From contig NZ_CP019068.1 of NCBI RefSeq assembly GCF_001989615.1, positions 1-64,000 on the forward strand: a stretch of DNA of 64,000 nt, in the 5' to 3' direction. A program made the position numbers and the translations under genes. The notes beneath the pieces are model-generated. The model worked only from the letters and a program-made list of their open reading frames with translations, was not told where the DNA came from and did no database searches. This document shows, piece by piece, positions 27,190 through 36,699 of the stretch. Source of the DNA: Halorientalis sp. IM1011. GTDB taxonomy: Archaea > Halobacteriota > Halobacteria > Halobacteriales > Haloarculaceae. Each line of letters opens with the position of its first letter. The stretch's first letter is position 1.

Positions 27190-28521
27190 CTATTCATCAG
27201 CGAGCCGGCCGGGTGTCCACTCGCCGTCGAAGGCCTCGTGAGTGAACGGCGTTGCGTCTTCCCCTGCGTAGGTGGCCACGAGCTGGCCGTCGCCCTCGAG
27301 GTAGTACTTGTAGGTCGTCAACCCCGCCAGACCGACCGGGCCACGAGCGTGGATCTTCCCCGTCGAGATGCCGACCTCCGCGCCAAGCCCGTAGCGATAG
27401 CCGTCGGCAAAGCGCGTTGAGGCGTTGTGGAAGACGCTCGCGGCGTCGATGCCGGTCATGAACAGCTCGGCGGCCTCGGCGTCTTCGGTGACGATCGACT
27501 CGGTGTGTTTCGAGCCGTGGGCGTTGATGTGTTCGACAGCCTCGTACACGTCCGAGACGATCTTGATCGACAGTTCGAGATCCCCGTACTCGCTGTCCCA
27601 GTCGGCGTCGGTCGCTTCGCCCACGTCGACGATCTCGCGAGTCGCCTCGTCTCCGCGGAGTTCGACGCCGGCAGCCTCGTAGCGCTCGACCATGTCCGGC
27701 AGGAACGTCTCGGCGACGCGTTCGTTGACCAGTAGCGTCTCGACGGCGTTACAGACCGCCGGATACTGGACCTTGGCGTCGAAGGCGATCTCCTCTGCCT
27801 GTTCGAGGTCGGCGGCCTCGTCGACGTAGACGTGGCAGATCCCCTCCGTGTGGCCCAGTACGGGAATTTGGGTGTTGTTCTGGATGTAGGAGACGAACTC
27901 CGAGGAGCCACGGGGCATCAGCAGATCCACTTTGTCGTCCATCTCCAGCAGGCGGTCGACCTCCTCGTGTGCTTCGATGAGCTGGACCCAGCCGTCGGGC
28001 AGCTCGGCGGTCGCTTCGCGGATGATCTCGTAGAGGACGCGGTTGGACTCGCTCGCTTCACTGCCGCCTTTGAGGATGACGGCGTTGCCGGATTTGAGGG
28101 CGAGGGCGGCGATCTGGACCAGTGCGTCCGGCCGTGACTCGAAGATGGTGCCGACGACACCGATCGGTACGGCGACCTTGTACAGTTCGAGATCCTCGTC
28201 CAGTTCCCGGGCTTCCAGTGTCTCGCCGAGGGGATCTTCCTGTTCGGCGACGCTCTCGACCATCTCGGCGATGCTCTCCAGTTTCGCGTCGTCGAGTTTC
28301 AGCCGGTCGACGAGCGCCTGGGTGTACTCGCCCTGTTCGAGCATGGCCTCTGCCTCCTCCACGTCGGTCGCGTTCGCCTCGCGGATCTCCGTCTCGTGGC
28401 CGCGAATGGCGTCGGCGATCGATTCGAGCGCCGCGTTGCGCGTCGCTTCGTCGACGTTTGCCAGCTGCAGCGCGGCGTGCTGTGCGTCGGTCACCTGGGA
28501 TTCCGTGTCGTACTCAGTCAT
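27190..28521 (-). CDS. proA: Glutamate-5-semialdehyde dehydrogenase (gamma-glutamyl phosphate reductase)
   Basis: The protein has 443 residues, typical for the family. It reduces gamma-glutamyl phosphate with NADPH to glutamate 5-semialdehyde, the second step of proline synthesis, in the cytoplasm. The aldehyde dehydrogenase fold shows the nucleotide-binding [15 protein letters not shown], the ProA-typical [16 protein letters not shown], and the catalytic cysteine in [13 protein letters not shown]. It is the last gene of the proC-proB-proA operon; its start overlaps the end of proB by 8 nt. The IS remnant E lies 26 bp beyond its stop. Confidence 0.97.
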
Positions 28522-29362
28522 CTGTGGCTCCGTTTATCGGGACGAATAGGGTGCCTACTGATTTGGCAGTAGCGATCCGTTCCAGCACGTCTCGGTCCGC
28601 CGAGCTCGCGATGATCGCGGGCGTGCCGTGCTCGCTCACGTCGCGTGCGCCCTCGACTTTCGTCTGGATGCCGCCGAACTCGGCGGTCGTGCTGTCGTCG
28701 ACGAGCGACTGGACGGCGTCGTAGTTCGCGCCGACTGCCTCGATCAGTTCCGCGTCGGCGTCGTCCTTCGGGTTGCCAGTGTAGACGCCGCCAACATCGG
28801 TCAGCGTCACCAGCAGATCGACGTCGACGCCGATAGCGACTGACGCCGAGAGCATGTCGTTGTCGCCGATCTGGATCTCCTCGGTCGCGATCGCGTCGTT
28901 CTCGTTGATGATCGGGACGATTCCCCAGTCGAACAGGGTCTCGATGGTGTTGCGGACGTTCGTGAACCGCTCGGGGTTGGCCAGATCGTGCTCGGTCAGG
29001 AGAATCTGTGCGACCGTCTGGTCGTACCGGTCGAAACTCTGCGTGTAGTGGCGCATCAGATGGCTCTGTCCGACGGTCGACAGCGCCTGGCTCTCCTCGA
29101 CGGTCTCGGTCTCCTCGTCGATCAGCCCTTTGCCGGCACCGACTGCGCCAGACGAGACCAACAGTACGTCTTTCCCGCGCTCCCGGAGGGCCATGATGTC
29201 GCTGACCAGTTTATCGAGTTTCACGCGATCGAGTTGGGAGTCCGCGTCAGTCAGGGAGTTCGTCCCCGCCTTGACGATCACGCGCTGGGCGTCGGCGGCC
29301 TGCTGGCGTGCCTGCTCGACGGTCGCTTCGTCGATGGCCTCGATTGGTGGCTGCTCACTCAT
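28514..29362 (-). CDS. proB: Glutamate 5-kinase, short form without PUA domain
   Basis: The protein has 282 residues from the ATG at 29362. It phosphorylates the gamma-carboxylate of glutamate to start proline synthesis. The amino acid kinase fold is clear: [12 protein letters not shown] at the N-terminus, [21 protein letters not shown], and [15 protein letters not shown] near the ATP site. The C-terminal PUA domain found in most bacterial enzymes is absent and the protein ends right after the kinase core. It overlaps proC upstream and proA downstream by 8 nt each, so translation is coupled. Confidence 0.95.
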
Positions 29363-30131
29363 CGTCGAACTCCTCGGCGAGTTCGCGGGACCGATCCTCG
29401 GCCGCTTCGACGGCGTCGACGACCGCCGTATCGGCGTCGCTGTCCCACAGCACTTCCATGCCCTCGATGGTCGTCCCGTTGGGCGAGCAGACGGCGTCGA
29501 TGAGTTCCGAGACGTTTCGGTCATCCCGGAGGACTGTCTCGGCCGCGCCTTTGAACGTCTGGGCGGCCAGCGTCTCGGCTTGCTCGGGATCGAGGCCGCC
29601 GTCGACGCCGGCCTCCTTCATCGCGTCGATGAGGTAGAAGACGAAGGCCGGGCCGCTGCCGTTGACTGCTGTCGCCACGTCCATCAACTCCTCGTCGATC
29701 TCGACGAACTCGCCGACCGCATCGAGCATCTCCCGCACGTCGTCGTCGAGTCCCTCGTGGGTGGCTGCAGCGGCCATGTCGCCGGTCTCGGCCGCCAGAT
29801 TCGGCATGATCCGGACGACCGTCGCGTCCGTCTCGCTGGCGACGAACGACCGCGGGACGCCCGCCGCGATGGTGACCAGCGACTGGTCCGGCCGGAGATC
29901 GAGATCCGAGAGGACTGCGGAGACTGCCTTCGGTTTGACCGACAGAACGACGATGTCCGCCTCCCGGGCCGCGTCGATGTCGTCGGTCGTCCTGTCCGCG
30001 TCGTCGGCGACCGACGCCAGCGCCTCGGGATCGAGGTCGATAGCTGTCACTTCGTAGGCTCCGGTCTGGGTGAGCCCCGTCACGAAAGCTCCACCCATGT
30101 TCCCGCAACCGATAACGCTCACGTGTGTCAT
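29355..30131 (-). CDS. proC: Pyrroline-5-carboxylate reductase
   Basis: The protein has 258 residues from the ATG at 30131. It reduces pyrroline-5-carboxylate to proline with NAD(P)H, the last step of the pathway. The Rossmann start is [17 protein letters not shown], followed by [22 protein letters not shown] and the family signature near the C-terminus ([16 protein letters not shown]). It is the first gene of the proC-proB-proA operon. A longer open frame to 30215 adds an unlikely basic extension. Confidence 0.96.
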
Positions 30132-30222
30132 CCTATTCGTACAGCGGTGATTGAGGTACATACCAACTACGGCTTCGTCCGAGCAATCGGCCCGCCGGGG
30201 CGCTGCTCGTTTCACTGGAAGC

Positions 30223-30657
30223 CTACTCCCAGTCGTAGCCGTATCGTTCCGTACGCAGGATATCCGCGACCTGATCCGGGTTCTCGATAGCGGTCTCCAT
30301 CGCTGCTTCGAGCACGTCCGTTTTCGTCACTTCTTCGCCGAGTGCAGCTGCGACTGCGTCAACTAACTCCGGAATGCGAGTCTCGTTGTACTCACGGAGA
30401 TAGACGGGGCGCTGTGAACGGTTTTCCTTGACGGCGTCGCGTTTGTAGATGTACGGGAGCGTCCGAGAGAACGACGTCTCACTGGAATCGTCACGTTCGG
30501 TCCCCGTCCGCTCTGTCTGCGTCGGAACAGACCCACTCTCGCCTCGGTTCGGAGTGTCCTCGGACTGTTCGTCACTACTGTCCGGTTCAGTCGGTTCTGA
30601 TTTGTCACCGGTATCCGGCGCTTCGGCAAACGGATCGTCAGTCGATCCCTGTTTCAT
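30223..30657 (-). CDS. Putative partition DNA-binding protein downstream of ParA
   Basis: The protein has 144 residues. The first about 65 are disordered and acidic (D, E, S, T). Residues about 80-140 show a short strand (RPVYLREYNE) and two helices (TRIPELVDAVAAALGEEV, TKTDVLEAAMETAIENP), a pattern that fits a ribbon-helix-helix dimer. Its ATG overlaps the parA stop (ATGA), which is the usual position of a centromere-binding partner. I infer that it binds the 9-nt array upstream of parA and loads onto ParA. No family name can be given from sequence alone. Confidence 0.6.
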   Translation of the reverse strand: MKQGSTDDPFAEAPDTGDKSEPTEPDSSDEQSEDTPNRGESGSVPTQTERTGTERDDSSETSFSRTLPYIYKRDAVKENRSQRPVYLREYNETRIPELVDAVAAALGEEVTKTDVLEAAMETAIENPDQVADILRTERYGYDWE

Positions 30658-31493
30658 GCCGGCACCTCCTTCTGGCGGCGGATATACGCCGCCAACTCCT
30701 CGAACTTGTCCAGCGTGTCGAGTTCGTGATCCCGCTCGCGATCACGATGTTCGTCTATATAGCGAAATGCGGTACATTGTTTGTCCCAACACCCTTCGAG
30801 GAGCGAGGAGCGCTTCCGGAACGTGACCGGGACCTCCCATCCTTCGTCCTGGAGTTCGACCAGGAACTGATCTTGCGTGTTCAGCCCCTCGAATCGGTTG
30901 GGAACGATCGCCAGGACCCCAACTTCGATTTCCAGGTTCTCTTCGAGTCCGGCGACGATGTCGTCGAGGCCCTGTACCGATTCGTAGCCCTTCCCGCTTG
31001 GCTCGAACGGGATCACCAGGTGTCGGGTGGCGTGAATCGCGTTGTGGAGTTTGATGTCCGGGCTGGCCGGGGGGTCGATGATGAGCGTGTCGTACTGCTC
31101 GTGCACGCCGGCTTCCCGCAGAACCCGGAGGAGTTGTTTGTTGGGGTTGAACGACTCACCGAAATCGGCAGCCTCCTCGGCCCGTCGCTGGAGGTGTTTC
31201 GACGCGTATTCGAGGATGTTGTGTGCGGGGATGATGTCCAGGCCCTCGCTCGTTTTGATCAGATCCGCAAAATCCCCACGCGGGCGGTCGATCATGTGCC
31301 GAAGGAGGCTATCGGCCTCCTTGTTACTCCGATCCTCGTCGACGTCGAGGAGGTACGAAAGCGAGGCCTCCTGCGTGTCGAGATCGATCAGCAGGACCTC
31401 GTTTCCGGCCCGCGCTTCCGCTTTCGCGAGATTCGCAGTGAGCGTCGTTTTCCCGACGCCCCCTGCCTCGCTGTAGACCGTATAGGCCAACAT
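30654..31493 (-). CDS. parA: ParA-family partition ATPase
   Basis: The protein has 279 residues from the ATG at 31493; an in-frame GTG lies at 31502. The P-loop is the deviant ParA type at residues 8-17 (SEAGGVGKTT), although the first conserved lysine is replaced by Glu-Ala. The rest has LLIDLDTQEASLSYLL, LIIDPPASPD and an adaptor-like C-terminus. ParA proteins use ATP to move replicon copies or origins apart on the nucleoid. The start is supported by a TATA box (TTTTATTT on the minus strand) about 27 bp upstream. It is cotranscribed with the small protein at 30223-30657 and shares its neighbourhood with orc1 and origin repeats. Confidence 0.9.
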   Translation of the reverse strand: MLAYTVYSEAGGVGKTTLTANLAKAEARAGNEVLLIDLDTQEASLSYLLDVDEDRSNKEADSLLRHMIDRPRGDFADLIKTSEGLDIIPAHNILEYASKHLQRRAEEAADFGESFNPNKQLLRVLREAGVHEQYDTLIIDPPASPDIKLHNAIHATRHLVIPFEPSGKGYESVQGLDDIVAGLEENLEIEVGVLAIVPNRFEGLNTQDQFLVELQDEGWEVPVTFRKRSSLLEGCWDKQCTAFRYIDEHRDRERDHELDTLDKFEELAAYIRRQKEVPA

Positions 31494-31527
31494 ACCCGAC
31501 ACGTCGGGCCACCACCAAATAAAACTA

Positions 31528-31690
31528 AGTCAGACAATCGACTCAGCTGAGTAAGTTGGTTAAGTTTGCTGGCTAAATAGGCCAACTAATTGAGCTGGCT
31601 GAGTTAGCTGGCTTAGCCAGCTAGCTTAGTTATCTAGCTAAGCCAGTTAGTAGAGTTCTCAGAGTTAGCTATCTGGCCGAGTTATTTGGG
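31528..31690. repeat. Array of 8-9-nt repeats upstream of parA (candidate centromere and operator)
   Basis: About sixteen short units share the pattern YTNNNYNAG or CTGG-like, for example CTGAGTAAG, TTGGTTAAG, TTTGCTGG, CTAAATAGG, CTTAGCCAG, CTAGCTTAG, TTATCTAG, CTAAGCCAG, TTAGTAGAG and TTCTCAGAG. They run almost without gaps with a period of 8-9 nt, some in reverse orientation. The array abuts the TATA box of parA. Its composition is unlike the flanking DNA. Binding by the small ParA partner is inferred. Confidence 0.65.
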
Positions 31691-31870
31691 GAACCGAGAT
31701 GGCTGTCCTGGCTAACGGACTCAGTGGGCCTGGTTATCGAATCGTGACATCTAGGCTGGTTAACTCGCCAGGCCAGACGATTTGGACAGCAGATAGAGAT
31801 TATTTCGTGGGGTGGAGCGGCTGCCACCAGAGAGACGTGACTCGACGCACAGATCTTCACCTCAAAACAG

Positions 31871-32148
31871 ATCGATAGAGGTGTGTGACGGCGCCGTCCA
31901 CGATTCAGAACACTTCGATAGAGGTGTCTGCCCAGACCACGGTTTCGACGACACCACCCTATATCAGCCGGATATGATTATCTCCTAGAATAGAGTAGAG
32001 ATTCCGACACGGGCCAATATCGGCCGTTTTGGCGGCTTGTGGCGACAATCACACATCGATAGAGGTGTGCGATCTGCGTCCGGTGAGACTGGAACTGTAG
32101 ACTGGTTGGGGCTCGGGGATTCTCTGAAACACATCGATAGAGGTGTGG
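31871..32148 (+). repeat. Origin iterons, left cluster (four copies)
   Basis: Four copies of a motif centred on ATCGATAGAGGTGT lie at about 31871-31887, 31911-31930 (CACTTCGATAGAGGTGTCTG), 32051-32070 (ACACATCGATAGAGGTGTGC) and 32129-32148, all in the same orientation, between parA and the 3' end of orc1. They match the repeats on the far side of orc1 and are probably origin recognition boxes. Confidence 0.75.
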
Positions 32149-32199
32149 GATAAACCATGTGGCCGGGCCCGCCGAAGTGGGCGGTCGTCGAGGGGTGTC

Positions 32200-33657
32200 T
32201 CAGGTTTCGTTACGGAGTTGCGCTTTGACCACCGACTGGACTTCGTCGGCGGAGACCATCTCGATTCGAGAGTCTTCGCGTAGCGTATCGAGGATCGTGT
32301 CCGGCCGCTCGGCGAACTGAAATTCGAGGAACATACCTGAACTCGGGCCGTGACTCCGTCGCTCGAAGTCGACCAGCGAGTAGGTCGTCAGCTCTTTCAT
32401 CTTGTTGACGTAGGTTTCCTGGTGGTACTGGTCGACTCCGATCGTGTCGGTCAGGAACTGGTAGACCTGGTACCCAGTCGTACTGCGGGCCGTCCCGTCG
32501 TCGGTTTCGTCCGCGACCGCCGCCGTGGCGTAGAGACAGAGCTTCTTCTGGGTACTGATACCGCGCACGACTTCCAGAACGCGGTTCTTCTCGACTTTCT
32601 CCTGGGCGTTCCGAACGTGTTCTTCACCGACGCTGGAATCGCCCTCCCGTTCGGCCAACTCCCCGGCGACCCGCATGAGGTCGATCGCCTTCCGTGCATC
32701 GCCGTGCGTCTGTGCCGCGAACGCGGCCGCGAGCGGAATGACGTCGTCGCTGAGCACGCCGTCGTAGAACGCGTCCTGTCGGCGACGGAGGATGGCCTGC
32801 AACTGGTTGGCGTCGTAGTCGTCGAAGTGGACGTCCTCCGGGGTGAACGAACTGAGAGCGCGACTCCCGACGGACTCCATCATCTTGGTGTCGTTCGAGA
32901 TGGCGACGACCGAGATGTGTGCGTCGAGATCGTCGATGGCACCGGACCGCGTCAACTGATACAGCAGTCGAGAGAAGGCGGGTTCCTGTTTGTCTCGGCG
33001 GCCGACGAGCATGTCGAGTTCGTCGAGGACGAACACGACCGAATCGAAGTTCTCATCGACGATCCGATACAGGTCGTCCCACTTCTCTTTGGTCGCGACG
33101 CCGTGTTTCGGGACCTGCACTTCCACACCGGCCTCGGTGGCCGCTCGCTCGGCGAGTTCGTACACCGCGATGCCGAGCGTGTTCAGGTCCTGGCAGTTGA
33201 CCTCGATCGTCCCGAACCGGATATCCCGCTGTTCACAGATGTTCGAGATGTTCTCACAGACCGCTTTGGTGATGAGTGACTTTCCGGTCCCGGAGGGCCC
33301 GTAGAGAAAGAGGTTCGGTGGTCGATTGTCGCCCAGCGCGACGCGGAGCATCTTCGTCACCTCCTGGAGCTGTTCGCCACGACCCACGATGCGATCCTCT
33401 TCGACGATGTAATTCGGGTCGAGAAGCGACCGATCGCGGATCAATCCCGCCTGTTCGTCGAACTCGAGCAGCATCTCTTCGATCGACTCGGATCCGGTGT
33501 CGTCGACCGATCCGGAACCGGTAGCGTCGATCTCGTCGGAACCGAAATCCTCGCTGAGATCGTCCGGAACCGGGTCGGCGTCCTCCGACGGCGAGTCCCC
33601 ACCATTGGACCCGGACGAGTCAGTGTCCATGCCCGACCCCTGACGAGGCAGTGCCAT
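32200..33657 (-). CDS. orc1: Orc1/Cdc6 replication initiator
   Basis: The protein has 485 residues from the ATG at 33657; an in-frame ATG at 33630 is possible. The N-terminal about 65 residues are acidic and disordered. Then comes the AAA+ domain with Walker A GPSGTGKS (120-127), Walker B VVFVLDELDML (207-217) and a sensor region (AISNDTKMMESVG), followed by a winged helix at the C-terminus that should bind the iterons. It recognises the origin and opens DNA for MCM loading. The first iteron (33667-33684) lies 10 bp before the start, so the protein probably controls its own promoter. The adjacent repeats suggest it is dedicated to this origin. Confidence 0.93.
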   Translation of the reverse strand: MALPRQGSGMDTDSSGSNGGDSPSEDADPVPDDLSEDFGSDEIDATGSGSVDDTGSESIEEMLLEFDEQAGLIRDRSLLDPNYIVEEDRIVGRGEQLQEVTKMLRVALGDNRPPNLFLYGPSGTGKSLITKAVCENISNICEQRDIRFGTIEVNCQDLNTLGIAVYELAERAATEAGVEVQVPKHGVATKEKWDDLYRIVDENFDSVVFVLDELDMLVGRRDKQEPAFSRLLYQLTRSGAIDDLDAHISVVAISNDTKMMESVGSRALSSFTPEDVHFDDYDANQLQAILRRRQDAFYDGVLSDDVIPLAAAFAAQTHGDARKAIDLMRVAGELAEREGDSSVGEEHVRNAQEKVEKNRVLEVVRGISTQKKLCLYATAAVADETDDGTARSTTGYQVYQFLTDTIGVDQYHQETYVNKMKELTTYSLVDFERRSHGPSSGMFLEFQFAERPDTILDTLREDSRIEMVSADEVQSVVKAQLRNET

Positions 33658-33666
33658 AAGTCTTCT

Positions 33667-34374
33667 CCACCTCTATCGATGTGTAAATCTGCAGTACATC
33701 GATTATTACGTGTGGAAAACCGAACCAGGGGACGGTATCCGGATGGTTCCTACACAGGGACCGACGAAGTGTTTGCTGAACAGCGTAGGGTCGACGATGT
33801 GTTTCGACGGACGAGTCGAGACGGTTCCACACAGACACCCCTCTATCGATGTGTTCGAGTGTTCGAGGGGGCGGGGGGTGAGATTCGGCAGGTTTTGCCG
33901 GATGGAGTTCGTGCAATTCCCGCTACCGTACGATATCCAGTGATAGGCACTATAGTAGTCTTAGAGTCGATCTAGCTGAACCCGTCGAAACCCATCTTTT
34001 CCTTCTTCTTCTAGCTTTCTAGAACGAACACTCACACACACCTCTATCGAAGTGTTCGATGTGTTCGCTAGAATCACGTTTTGCCGCTTTTTCGCTTCTA
34101 GTTACTAGTTCCGCCACTCCTAGCCTATTTCTTCCGGTACAGCTTCTCTATCCGAGACTGATCGGAAATATCCCCCGTCGACACCTCTCGATCGAGACGT
34201 TCCCTCCTGTCCCTACGAACCGAAACACATCGATAGAGGGGTGTCTGTGTGGTCCAATCCCCTTCAGCGACTCGCTCGAAGCGGATCTGTCCACACGGCC
34301 GAGCCGAACCGAACCGAACCGAACTCTCACCTGAAGTCGATAGCGAGGCGGAACACATCGATAGAGGGGTGTGA
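33667..34374. repeat. Origin iterons, right cluster with possible unwinding region
   Basis: Copies at 33667-33684, 33835-33855 and 34035-34055 read CCTCTATCGATGTG-like (minus orientation). Copies at 34224-34245 and 34352-34374 read ACACATCGATAGAGGGGTGT (plus orientation). A weaker copy lies near 34180. The opposed orientations enclose an AT-richer, pyrimidine-rich stretch (about 33940-34140) with seven CTAG tetranucleotides between 33972 and 34123, and four tandem CCGAA units follow at 34304-34323. Opposed boxes around an unwinding element are typical of haloarchaeal oriC regions. Confidence 0.75.
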
Positions 34375-34525: not shown

Positions 34526-36699
34526 TCAGAGGTCGTCTGCTCGGCCGTCGAATTCGATGTGGCGGTCTCCGTCTCCGACGGCGTCGGAGTCGGTGTCGGC
34601 GTCGGAGTCGATGTCGGAGTTGGCGTGGGCGTCGGAGATGCTGTTTGCGTGGGTGTTGGAGTCGGTGTCGGCGTGGGCGTGGGCGTCGGTGTTGGCGTCG
34701 GCGTGGGCGTGGGCGTCGGTGTTGGAGTGGGTGTCGGCGTGGGGTCCGGTGTCGGCGTCGGTGTCGGCCCGGGAGTTGGCGTCGGCGTCGGCGTTGGTGT
34801 GGAATCCGGTGTCGAATCCGGCGTGGCGGACGGCGTCGAGGCCGACTCGTCGGTCGCCGGTGGCTCGGTCGTGTCGGGCGGACCGGTCCCGGCGTCCGTG
34901 GTCCGATCCGGCGTGTCCGCGCCGGGCGTTCCGGCCGCCGGGTCCGTTCCCTGTCCCGTGCCCGGAGTCGGGGTGTCCGTCCCGTTCCCCCCGACGGGAA
35001 CCGGGGGCGATAGATCGTCGCCGGTCGGCGGACCGTCGTCGTCCATGCCGAACAGCGAACCGTCGGTCGGCAGGCCGACGACCATGCCGAGCCCGCTCAG
35101 GAACAGGACGACGCCGGCAGTGAGCAGGATCGCCCGGAGGACACCGGAGTCGATCGTCCGTGTGATCCGCTGGATCGGTCGCGATTCGTCGACCCGTCGG
35201 ATGGTCCGGTCGGCGCGCTCGTCGAGCGGCGCGGGTAACGAACCCGCCAGTTCGAGGAGTTCGTCCACGTGGACCGCTCCCGTCGTGACCGCGAGGAGGG
35301 AGTAGACCGCCAGCCCGACCGGCGGGACGACGACGAGAGCGATCAGGGGGTTCTTGAGCAGGTAGGATAGTCCCACGATCGGAATGGCCGACAGCGCGAC
35401 TGTCGCGACGAGGCGGCGGGGACGGAAGTCGTTGAACGGCTCGTAACCGAGCTGGTGTGCGCCCCAGACGTGGGCCAGCGGTAACGAGAGATACCCGAGC
35501 GAGGTCGCGACAGCCGCACCGTACATCCCGACGGTCGGGATCAGGATGGCGTTGAGCAGGAGATTCCCGAACGCGGCGACCGCGGTGGCGATGATCATCA
35601 CTCGCATCTCGCCTTTGGCGTAGCTGATGGCGAACACCGGCCGACCGATGGCGAACCCGATGGTCCCCGGGATGAGGAGCAGGACGGGCAGGACCGCCGC
35701 GCCGCCGTCCTCGCCCAGATACAGCGGGACGAAGGCCCAGGCGAGCGCTGCCAGTCCCAGCGAGAGGAGCGTGGTCAGGAGCGCGGTGTAGCGGATCACC
35801 TTCCCGGCCAGGGCGTTGATCTTCTCGATACGGCCCTCGGCCCAGTGGTCCGCGGTCGCCTGTACCATCACGCTCTGGACGGACCGGGGGACGATCCAGA
35901 GCAGTTGCGTGATGACCAGCGCCCCCTTGTAGATACCGACGTTGGCGCTCTCACTGAAAAACTCCAGCATGATGACGTCGACGTGGATCAGCGACATCAT
36001 CAGGAAGTTGTAGACGATGGAGGTGTGGTTGAAGTTGAACAGCTCCCAGCGTGGAAACTCGGTGGGGAGGGGTTTGAGGATCGCCGCCAGTGAGATGTGG
36101 CGAGCTATGGCGACCGTCGCGATCACCGTGACGGTCGTGCTGGCGACGATCTCGCCCAGGAGCACCCCCTGCACACCGTAGCCGAGGAAGGCGAGTGAGA
36201 CGCCGATGATCCCGAACAGGATCTTGTACACGACCTTGAGCGGTTCCGCGATGTGTTCCAGTTTCAGTCCCATCAGCGCCCGGCGGACGTATCCCCGGAA
36301 CTGCGCGGCGATGGTCAACACGGCGAGCAGGTAGAAGTACGGCTTGTACTTCTCGCCGATGGCGGCGGCGACGAGGCCGGTCTCGGCGGCGAGGATCAAC
36401 AGTCCCGCCGCGATCACGGCCAGCACCGCCGCGAGCCGGAAGTAGAAGGCGAAGACGTGATCCTCCCAGCCGTCGTCATCGCGGTTCTCCGAGAGGAACT
36501 TGCGGGACCCGCCGTTGATCCCCGAACTGACGAGGATCATCAGCAATCCGAAGACGGACATCACCGTCCCGTACTCCCCGTAGGCACCCGGCTCGAGGAA
36601 CCGGAACAGGAAGGGCGTGATGAACAGCGAGACGACGAGGATGGCGACCCGCGACCCGATGACCGAGAGAAACGCCGTGAACGTGTTGCGGTTCACCAT
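34522..36699 (-). CDS. Polysaccharide flippase (MATE/Wzx-like) with long Pro-Thr repeat tail
   Basis: The protein has 725 residues from the ATG at 36699. The first about 480 residues form a polytopic membrane domain of the oligosaccharide-flippase type, with 12-14 helices beginning FTAFLSVIGSRVAILVVSLF. Another helix follows at about 530. The last about 180 residues are hydrophilic, starting with P/T/D/G-rich sequence and then long runs of alternating Pro-Thr, encoded by hexanucleotide-like repeats. Such transporters move lipid-linked glycans across the membrane. The tail is unusual for the family and could lie outside the cell, perhaps O-glycosylated (inference). The gene is 48 bp from the sugar nucleotidyltransferase gene. 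Confidence 0.85.
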   Translation of the reverse strand: MVNRNTFTAFLSVIGSRVAILVVSLFITPFLFRFLEPGAYGEYGTVMSVFGLLMILVSSGINGGSRKFLSENRDDDGWEDHVFAFYFRLAAVLAVIAAGLLILAAETGLVAAAIGEKYKPYFYLLAVLTIAAQFRGYVRRALMGLKLEHIAEPLKVVYKILFGIIGVSLAFLGYGVQGVLLGEIVASTTVTVIATVAIARHISLAAILKPLPTEFPRWELFNFNHTSIVYNFLMMSLIHVDVIMLEFFSESANVGIYKGALVITQLLWIVPRSVQSVMVQATADHWAEGRIEKINALAGKVIRYTALLTTLLSLGLAALAWAFVPLYLGEDGGAAVLPVLLLIPGTIGFAIGRPVFAISYAKGEMRVMIIATAVAAFGNLLLNAILIPTVGMYGAAVATSLGYLSLPLAHVWGAHQLGYEPFNDFRPRRLVATVALSAIPIVGLSYLLKNPLIALVVVPPVGLAVYSLLAVTTGAVHVDELLELAGSLPAPLDERADRTIRRVDESRPIQRITRTIDSGVLRAILLTAGVVLFLSGLGMVVGLPTDGSLFGMDDDGPPTGDDLSPPVPVGGNGTDTPTPGTGQGTDPAAGTPGADTPDRTTDAGTGPPDTTEPPATDESASTPSATPDSTPDSTPTPTPTPTPGPTPTPTPDPTPTPTPTPTPTPTPTPTPTPTPTPTPTPTPTQTASPTPTPTPTSTPTPTPTPTPSETETATSNSTAEQTTSE
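34560..34830. repeat. Low-complexity GT/CG hexamer repeats encoding the Pro-Thr tail
   Basis: On the plus strand this stretch is made of GTCGGC, GTGGGC and GTCGGT-type units, the complement of codons for alternating Pro and Thr. Repeats of six bases keep the frame when their number changes, so tail length may vary between strains. Confidence 0.8.

Follow-up and report, generated by a model that had tools for sequence, protein, structure and literature searches.

Replication and probable partition genes of the plasmid

The window, by which we mean the whole stretch of 64,000 nucleotides analyzed, covers the first 64 kb of the 276,813-bp contig C2, a plasmid; the same haloarchaeal genome also comprises a chromosome of 3.38 Mb and another plasmid, C3, of 120.6 kb. 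Three genes of interest, all on the minus strand, and a repeat array follow one another in the order orc1 (32200-33657), array, parA (30654-31502), and gene B (30223-30657), with the array situated past the 3' end of orc1. The product of orc1 is an Orc1/Cdc6 replication initiator (TIGR02928, 1e-127), and nine ORB-type repeats with the core ATCGATAGAGG flank the gene on both sides and mark the origin (31867-34367). The genes proA, a proB-like kinase, and proC are located beside the origin (27190-30215); the replicon is chromid-like, since these copies of proA and proC are the only ones in the genome. A coding tandem repeat at 34579-34802 is the threonine-proline-rich C terminus of a polysaccharide-flippase-like protein encoded on the minus strand.

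The parA gene encodes a ParA/MinD-type ATPase of 282 aa without an N-terminal HTH, translation of which probably begins at the ATG at 31493. The Pfam families AAA_31 (1.8e-19) and CbiA both exceeded the cut-off, and the P-loop comprises residues 13 to 19. The Walker A box reads SEAGGVGKT, without the signature lysine, and does not fit the deviant motif KGGxxK[ST] of type Ib ParA proteins. Our survey of Walker A boxes among relatives found this lysine replaced by alanine or serine at 98 of 101 ParA loci (SEAGGVGKT or close variants), the motif being unreadable at the other three. Lys171 was invariant in the survey and could serve as a substitute. The sequence relatives in the PDB include entries 5u1j and 5k5z, which we take to be pNOB8 ParA. 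No close ParA relatives were present in IMG/VR viral contigs, and the phage matches were confined to a 29% ParA in ChaoS9 and a 31% match in an unannotated phage record.

Gene B overlaps the end of parA by 4 bp and encodes a candidate centromere-binding protein of 144 aa, with the N-terminal sequence MKQGSTDDPFA, an acidic linker, and a C-terminal strand-helix-helix-like domain. The two genes are closely associated: gene B follows parA at 100 of 101 loci, usually with the 4-bp overlap, and parA is present at all 30 gene B loci examined. In a 393-genome sample of the phylum, gene B was confined to the window's own order. All 97 readable copies begin with an N-terminal K-x-G, usually in the form M-K-x-G-x-x-x-D-P-F, followed by a linker with a median of 33% D/E. 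In the C-terminal domain of 85 residues, the motif LPY..R..VK..R is accompanied by two helices and an FLR segment that resembles a strand. An AlphaFold2 model of the monomer, built from 10 sequences, has a disordered N terminus and helices at residues 86-106, 112-125, and 127-135.

The first-pass annotation had likened this layout to that of ribbon-helix-helix (RHH) proteins. The strand-helix-helix-like pattern is indeed present, but the RHH fold was not confirmed. Sequence searches against Pfam and PDB families returned no match, nor did a Foldseek search of structures with the 10-sequence monomer model as the query, and an HHalign comparison with haloarchaeal RHH_1 was not significant; an RHH fold for gene B is for these reasons possible but unproven. 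No ParB domain was found in the protein. Searching the PDB sequence set with a profile built from 41 gene B domains retrieved no SegB entry, even at an E value of 10, although SegB may be absent from that set.

A 13-bp array upstream of parA

A dense repeat array between parA and the origin repeats had been reported from the sequence, and its presence is far above chance. Repeated 6-mers on either strand numbered 54 in the segment from 31528 to 31690, compared with 15 ± 5.5 in dinucleotide shuffles, none of which matched the observed count. The repeat unit, previously given as 8 to 9 nt, had to be revised: autocorrelation of the segment peaked at lags of 13, 26, and 52 (z of about 8) and 39 (z of 6.5), giving a period of 13 bp, and the periodicity score at 13 was z = 12.8. 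Secondary lags at 9/22/35/48 and 4/17/30/43 indicate that the 13-bp unit holds sub-spacings of 9 + 4, which explains the apparent shorter units. The array core (31544-31688), as defined by autocorrelation and phased layout, contains about 11 contiguous dyad-symmetric units, with rows at 31546, 31559 and so on to 31676; examples in phase are GCTGAGTTAGCTG, GCTTAGCCAGCTA, GCTTAGTTATCTA, and GCTAAGCCAGTTA. A degenerate continuation of about eight weaker units extends in the same phase from 31689 to 31798, the phased PWM covering -296 to -42 from the parA GTG. The unit consensus, approximately CTNAG-YYAGCTRR, equals its own reverse complement. Palindromic symmetry was also measured across arrays, with a median r at the best centre of 0.66 versus 0.43 for column-permuted motifs, and 36 of 69 arrays were individually significant at p < 0.05. 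On the parA side, the array adjoins a TATA-box-like element (TTTTATTT, 31519-31526, minus strand) recognized by direct reading of the sequence, and a TCTGAC..TTTTAT block near this element also occurs upstream of close relatives.

We examined whether the period is conserved by scoring 26 periods (5 to 30) alike in the 300-bp region preceding each parA gene among ParA homologues of the Halobacteriales, with the ParA proteins thinned to 34 representatives. The top period was 13 or 26 at 94 of 100 loci, in 91 of 96 distinct upstream regions, and for 33 of the 34 representatives, with z above 5 in 27 of the 34; a period of 7 was never on top. The first-pass annotation had named missing conservation of the period among relatives as an outcome that would count against its reading; the period was conserved once corrected to 13 bp. 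The arrays consist of 8 to 45 contiguous units. They include those of H. salinarum pNRC200 and H. mediterranei pHME132 and that of a paralogue on C3, whose ParA is 45% identical and whose array is spelled ACTGATCAGTATT. As a control, we scored 437 ORF-upstream regions of C2 and C3, and only three had z13 above 5 with 13 as the top period, namely those of the two parA loci and one satellite array (described below). Most Haloarcula arrays are weak (z13 of about 2.5 to 4.8). Within 300 bp upstream of parA, an array was undetectable at two identical Halobellus loci (L017 and L027) and at L077, where both parA and gene B are present; the centromere may lie elsewhere at these loci, or the loci may have decayed. 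At the other extreme, the array of locus L212 (G187:C4, 97,635-98,222) is unusually long, with about 45 units over some 590 bp.

These comparisons bear on the reading of the array as chance, as a low-complexity AT-rich spacer, or as an encoded RNA structure element. The segment is AT-rich (45% GC versus 62%), and its strand folds better than shuffles (z of -3.3), as would suit such a reading. However, the period is preserved exactly throughout the order even though the sequences differ, and the array is situated upstream of the parA promoter, so that we give this explanation next to no credence. The RNA element in particular was rejected, as the palindromic nature of the repeats accounts for the fold.

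Nor does the array appear to consist of replication iterons, bound by Orc1 or another initiator and belonging to the origin instead of a partition system. Its location between orc1 and parA, beside the nine ORB repeats, would be compatible with that role, as would the proximity of satellite arrays to other orc1 genes. However, the array differs from the ORBs in both sequence and period, and we rejected its identification as ORB repeats or iterons; the ORB core does not occur within it, the ORBs starting at 31,867. In addition, the array of relatives stays with parA without a nearby orc1 (orc1 was present at 3 of 13 loci with wide flanks, always on the far side), and its motif varies with gene B. 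We therefore regard an origin iteron function as very unlikely.

Motif specificity and satellite arrays

The array motif differs from one replicon to the next, also within a single genome, as C2 and C3 show, while the period is constant. On its own plasmid the C2 motif PWM reaches 47 bits, and its best score on C3 is no more than 20; for the C3 motif, the figures are 53 bits on C3 and no more than 21 on C2. In the four pairs of plasmids from a shared cell that were tested, the motifs were dissimilar, at the 48th to 86th percentile of all pairs. Motif distance increased with gene B distance (rank correlation rho of 0.41), with a median of 0.24 for nearly identical gene B proteins versus 0.49 for distant ones. 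When ParA distance was controlled for, a step that does not fully remove shared ancestry, the partial correlation was 0.33 and was reached in 0 of 2000 permutations.

We additionally scanned eight whole or nearly whole plasmids with the PWM of each plasmid's own parA array against a Markov null. The strongest 13-bp array was in every case the one at parA, and three of the eight plasmids had one cognate satellite each that was well above the null. The satellite of C2, the only other strong 13-bp array on this plasmid, is small (232,205-232,268; L119:8205-8268); it scored 35 bits at 232,209 (null, 14) and is 2.1 kb from an orc1 gene. N. pharaonis pL131 (NC_007427; L198) has a satellite at 97,732-97,783 with 36 bits (null, 18), 0.4 kb from orc1, and the third is at 192,369 on G187:C4, with 31 bits (null, 21.5), 0.8 kb from orc1. 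The second orc1 of C2, about 2 kb from the satellite, is itself flanked by ORB-like repeats (CACCCCTCGTCCAGAGTGTA), which suggests a second origin on the plasmid. On pL131 the array directly follows the four ORBs of orc1 and is 25 kb away from parA, with a weaker third site at 108,049. Weak 13-bp segments at 40,445 on C3, 17,152 on pL131, and 123,716 on G187:C4 gave no score with the cognate motif, and we disregarded them. By our own estimate from orc1 counts and plasmid lengths, with the distance chosen post hoc, random placement of all three satellites within 2.1 kb of an orc1 has a p near 1e-4.

The satellites are also informative with respect to a purely transcriptional role, in which the array would be the operator of parA and gene B, serving autorepression by gene B without a cis function in partition. 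Such a role would account for the array adjoining the parA TATA box and running in phase up to it, and for the parA array always being the strongest on a plasmid. However, 8 to 45 units far exceed the need of an operator, and the cognate satellites on three plasmids are near orc1 and not parA, at distances from parA of up to 76 kb. A position beside orc1 is predicted for an origin-near centromere and would not be predicted for a parA operator alone. An operator without a partition role is consequently improbable in our assessment, if less so than the iteron and chance readings.

A candidate centromere of haloarchaeal plasmids

Sequence comparison strongly supports the earlier suggestion that these short repeats act as the centromere of a ParA system, through the conserved period, the replicon-specific motif, the covariation with gene B, and the satellites at origins. 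We consider it quite likely that the array is both a parS/parC-like centromere and the parA operator in a haloarchaeal plasmid partition module made up of array, ParA, and gene B. Each 13-bp unit would take one gene B dimer, and the dimers would coat the array. The N-terminal K-x-G-x-x-x-D-P-F peptide on the acidic linker would then touch ParA and stimulate ATP hydrolysis, and plasmid copies would be positioned by nucleoid-bound ParA. Lying right beside the TATA-like element, the coated array may also repress parA and gene B. The differences in spelling from replicon to replicon would let plasmids coexist in one cell without incompatibility.

In its working, the system may resemble both bacterial type Ib partition and the archaeal chromosome segregation system SegAB of Saccharolobus. 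With type Ib systems (TP228 ParF-ParG-parH; pSM19035 delta-omega-parS) it shares a small ParA without an HTH, a small downstream partner gene, a short-repeat centromere at the promoter (predicted here), and a presumed N-terminal activating tail; the conserved K-x-G peptide on the acidic linker of gene B would be consistent with such a ParA-stimulating tail. However, the gene B family is unrelated in sequence to type Ib partners, and ParA lacks the signature lysine. The pSM19035 repeats are 7 bp and non-palindromic (PMC9499535), in contrast to the 13-bp palindromes here. In that system ParA activation needs at least four contiguous repeats (PMC9499535), and a similar requirement would explain why contiguity is kept in the 13-bp arrays.

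SegAB is similar in gene order and site position: its ParA-like gene is overlapped downstream by a small archaea-specific gene for a DNA-binding protein, as parA is by gene B here, and its binding sites are upstream of segA, as the array is upstream of parA. The site that SegB recognizes there is a 13-bp palindrome (PMC12284271, PMC5120986), TCTAGA-S-TCTAGA (PMC12284271), a size that fits one site per protein unit; the units here are also 13-bp palindromes, in tandem and with another spelling. However, SegB sites occur singly or in pairs, dispersed around a chromosome, whereas 8 to 45 contiguous units with replicon-specific spelling are found on the plasmids. Gene B has no detected sequence similarity to SegB, and the signature lysine is again a difference. 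Since ParA lacks this lysine and an RHH fold was not confirmed for gene B, we assign the system to neither type Ib nor SegAB.

Other ParA-related systems are more distant. McdA, the carboxysome positioning ATPase, is likewise ParA-like and functional with a Walker A box that lacks the signature lysine (PMC8262871, PMC9178275), but its cargo is an organelle and no centromere is involved, whereas the ATPase here is paired with a DNA repeat array. The Sulfolobus plasmid pNOB8 also has a ParA system, AspA-ParB-ParA, but this consists of three genes with ParB- and AspA-type proteins, neither of which is present here. ParABS systems have a ParB-type CTPase with an HTH and a 16-bp parS, in contrast to the 13-bp repeat and the lack of a ParB domain at these loci. 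It is conceivable, and we propose it tentatively, that the modules constitute a new partition class common to Halobacteriales plasmids. This class would combine a ParA lacking the signature lysine with a novel centromere-binding family unrelated to RHH or ParB proteins and with contiguous 13-bp palindromes that mark the parA promoter and replication origins and whose spelling sets compatibility groups.

The inheritance of low-copy haloarchaeal megaplasmids is poorly understood, and in the open-access literature searched, which leaves out most subscription journals, we found no description of their centromeres or of such 13-bp arrays. The 13-bp rule gives most Halobacteriales plasmids with such a parA a candidate centromere that can be tested directly, among them two from model species, pNRC200 of H. 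salinarum and pHME132 of H. mediterranei, and points to the product of gene B (homologue VNG_RS11710 on pNRC200) as the protein to purify. The spelling of the array would offer a sequence-based route to defining compatibility groups, and the array itself may serve as a stable-maintenance element for archaeal vectors. That the site size agrees with that of SegB suggests that plasmid and chromosome segregation in archaea may follow a shared logic.
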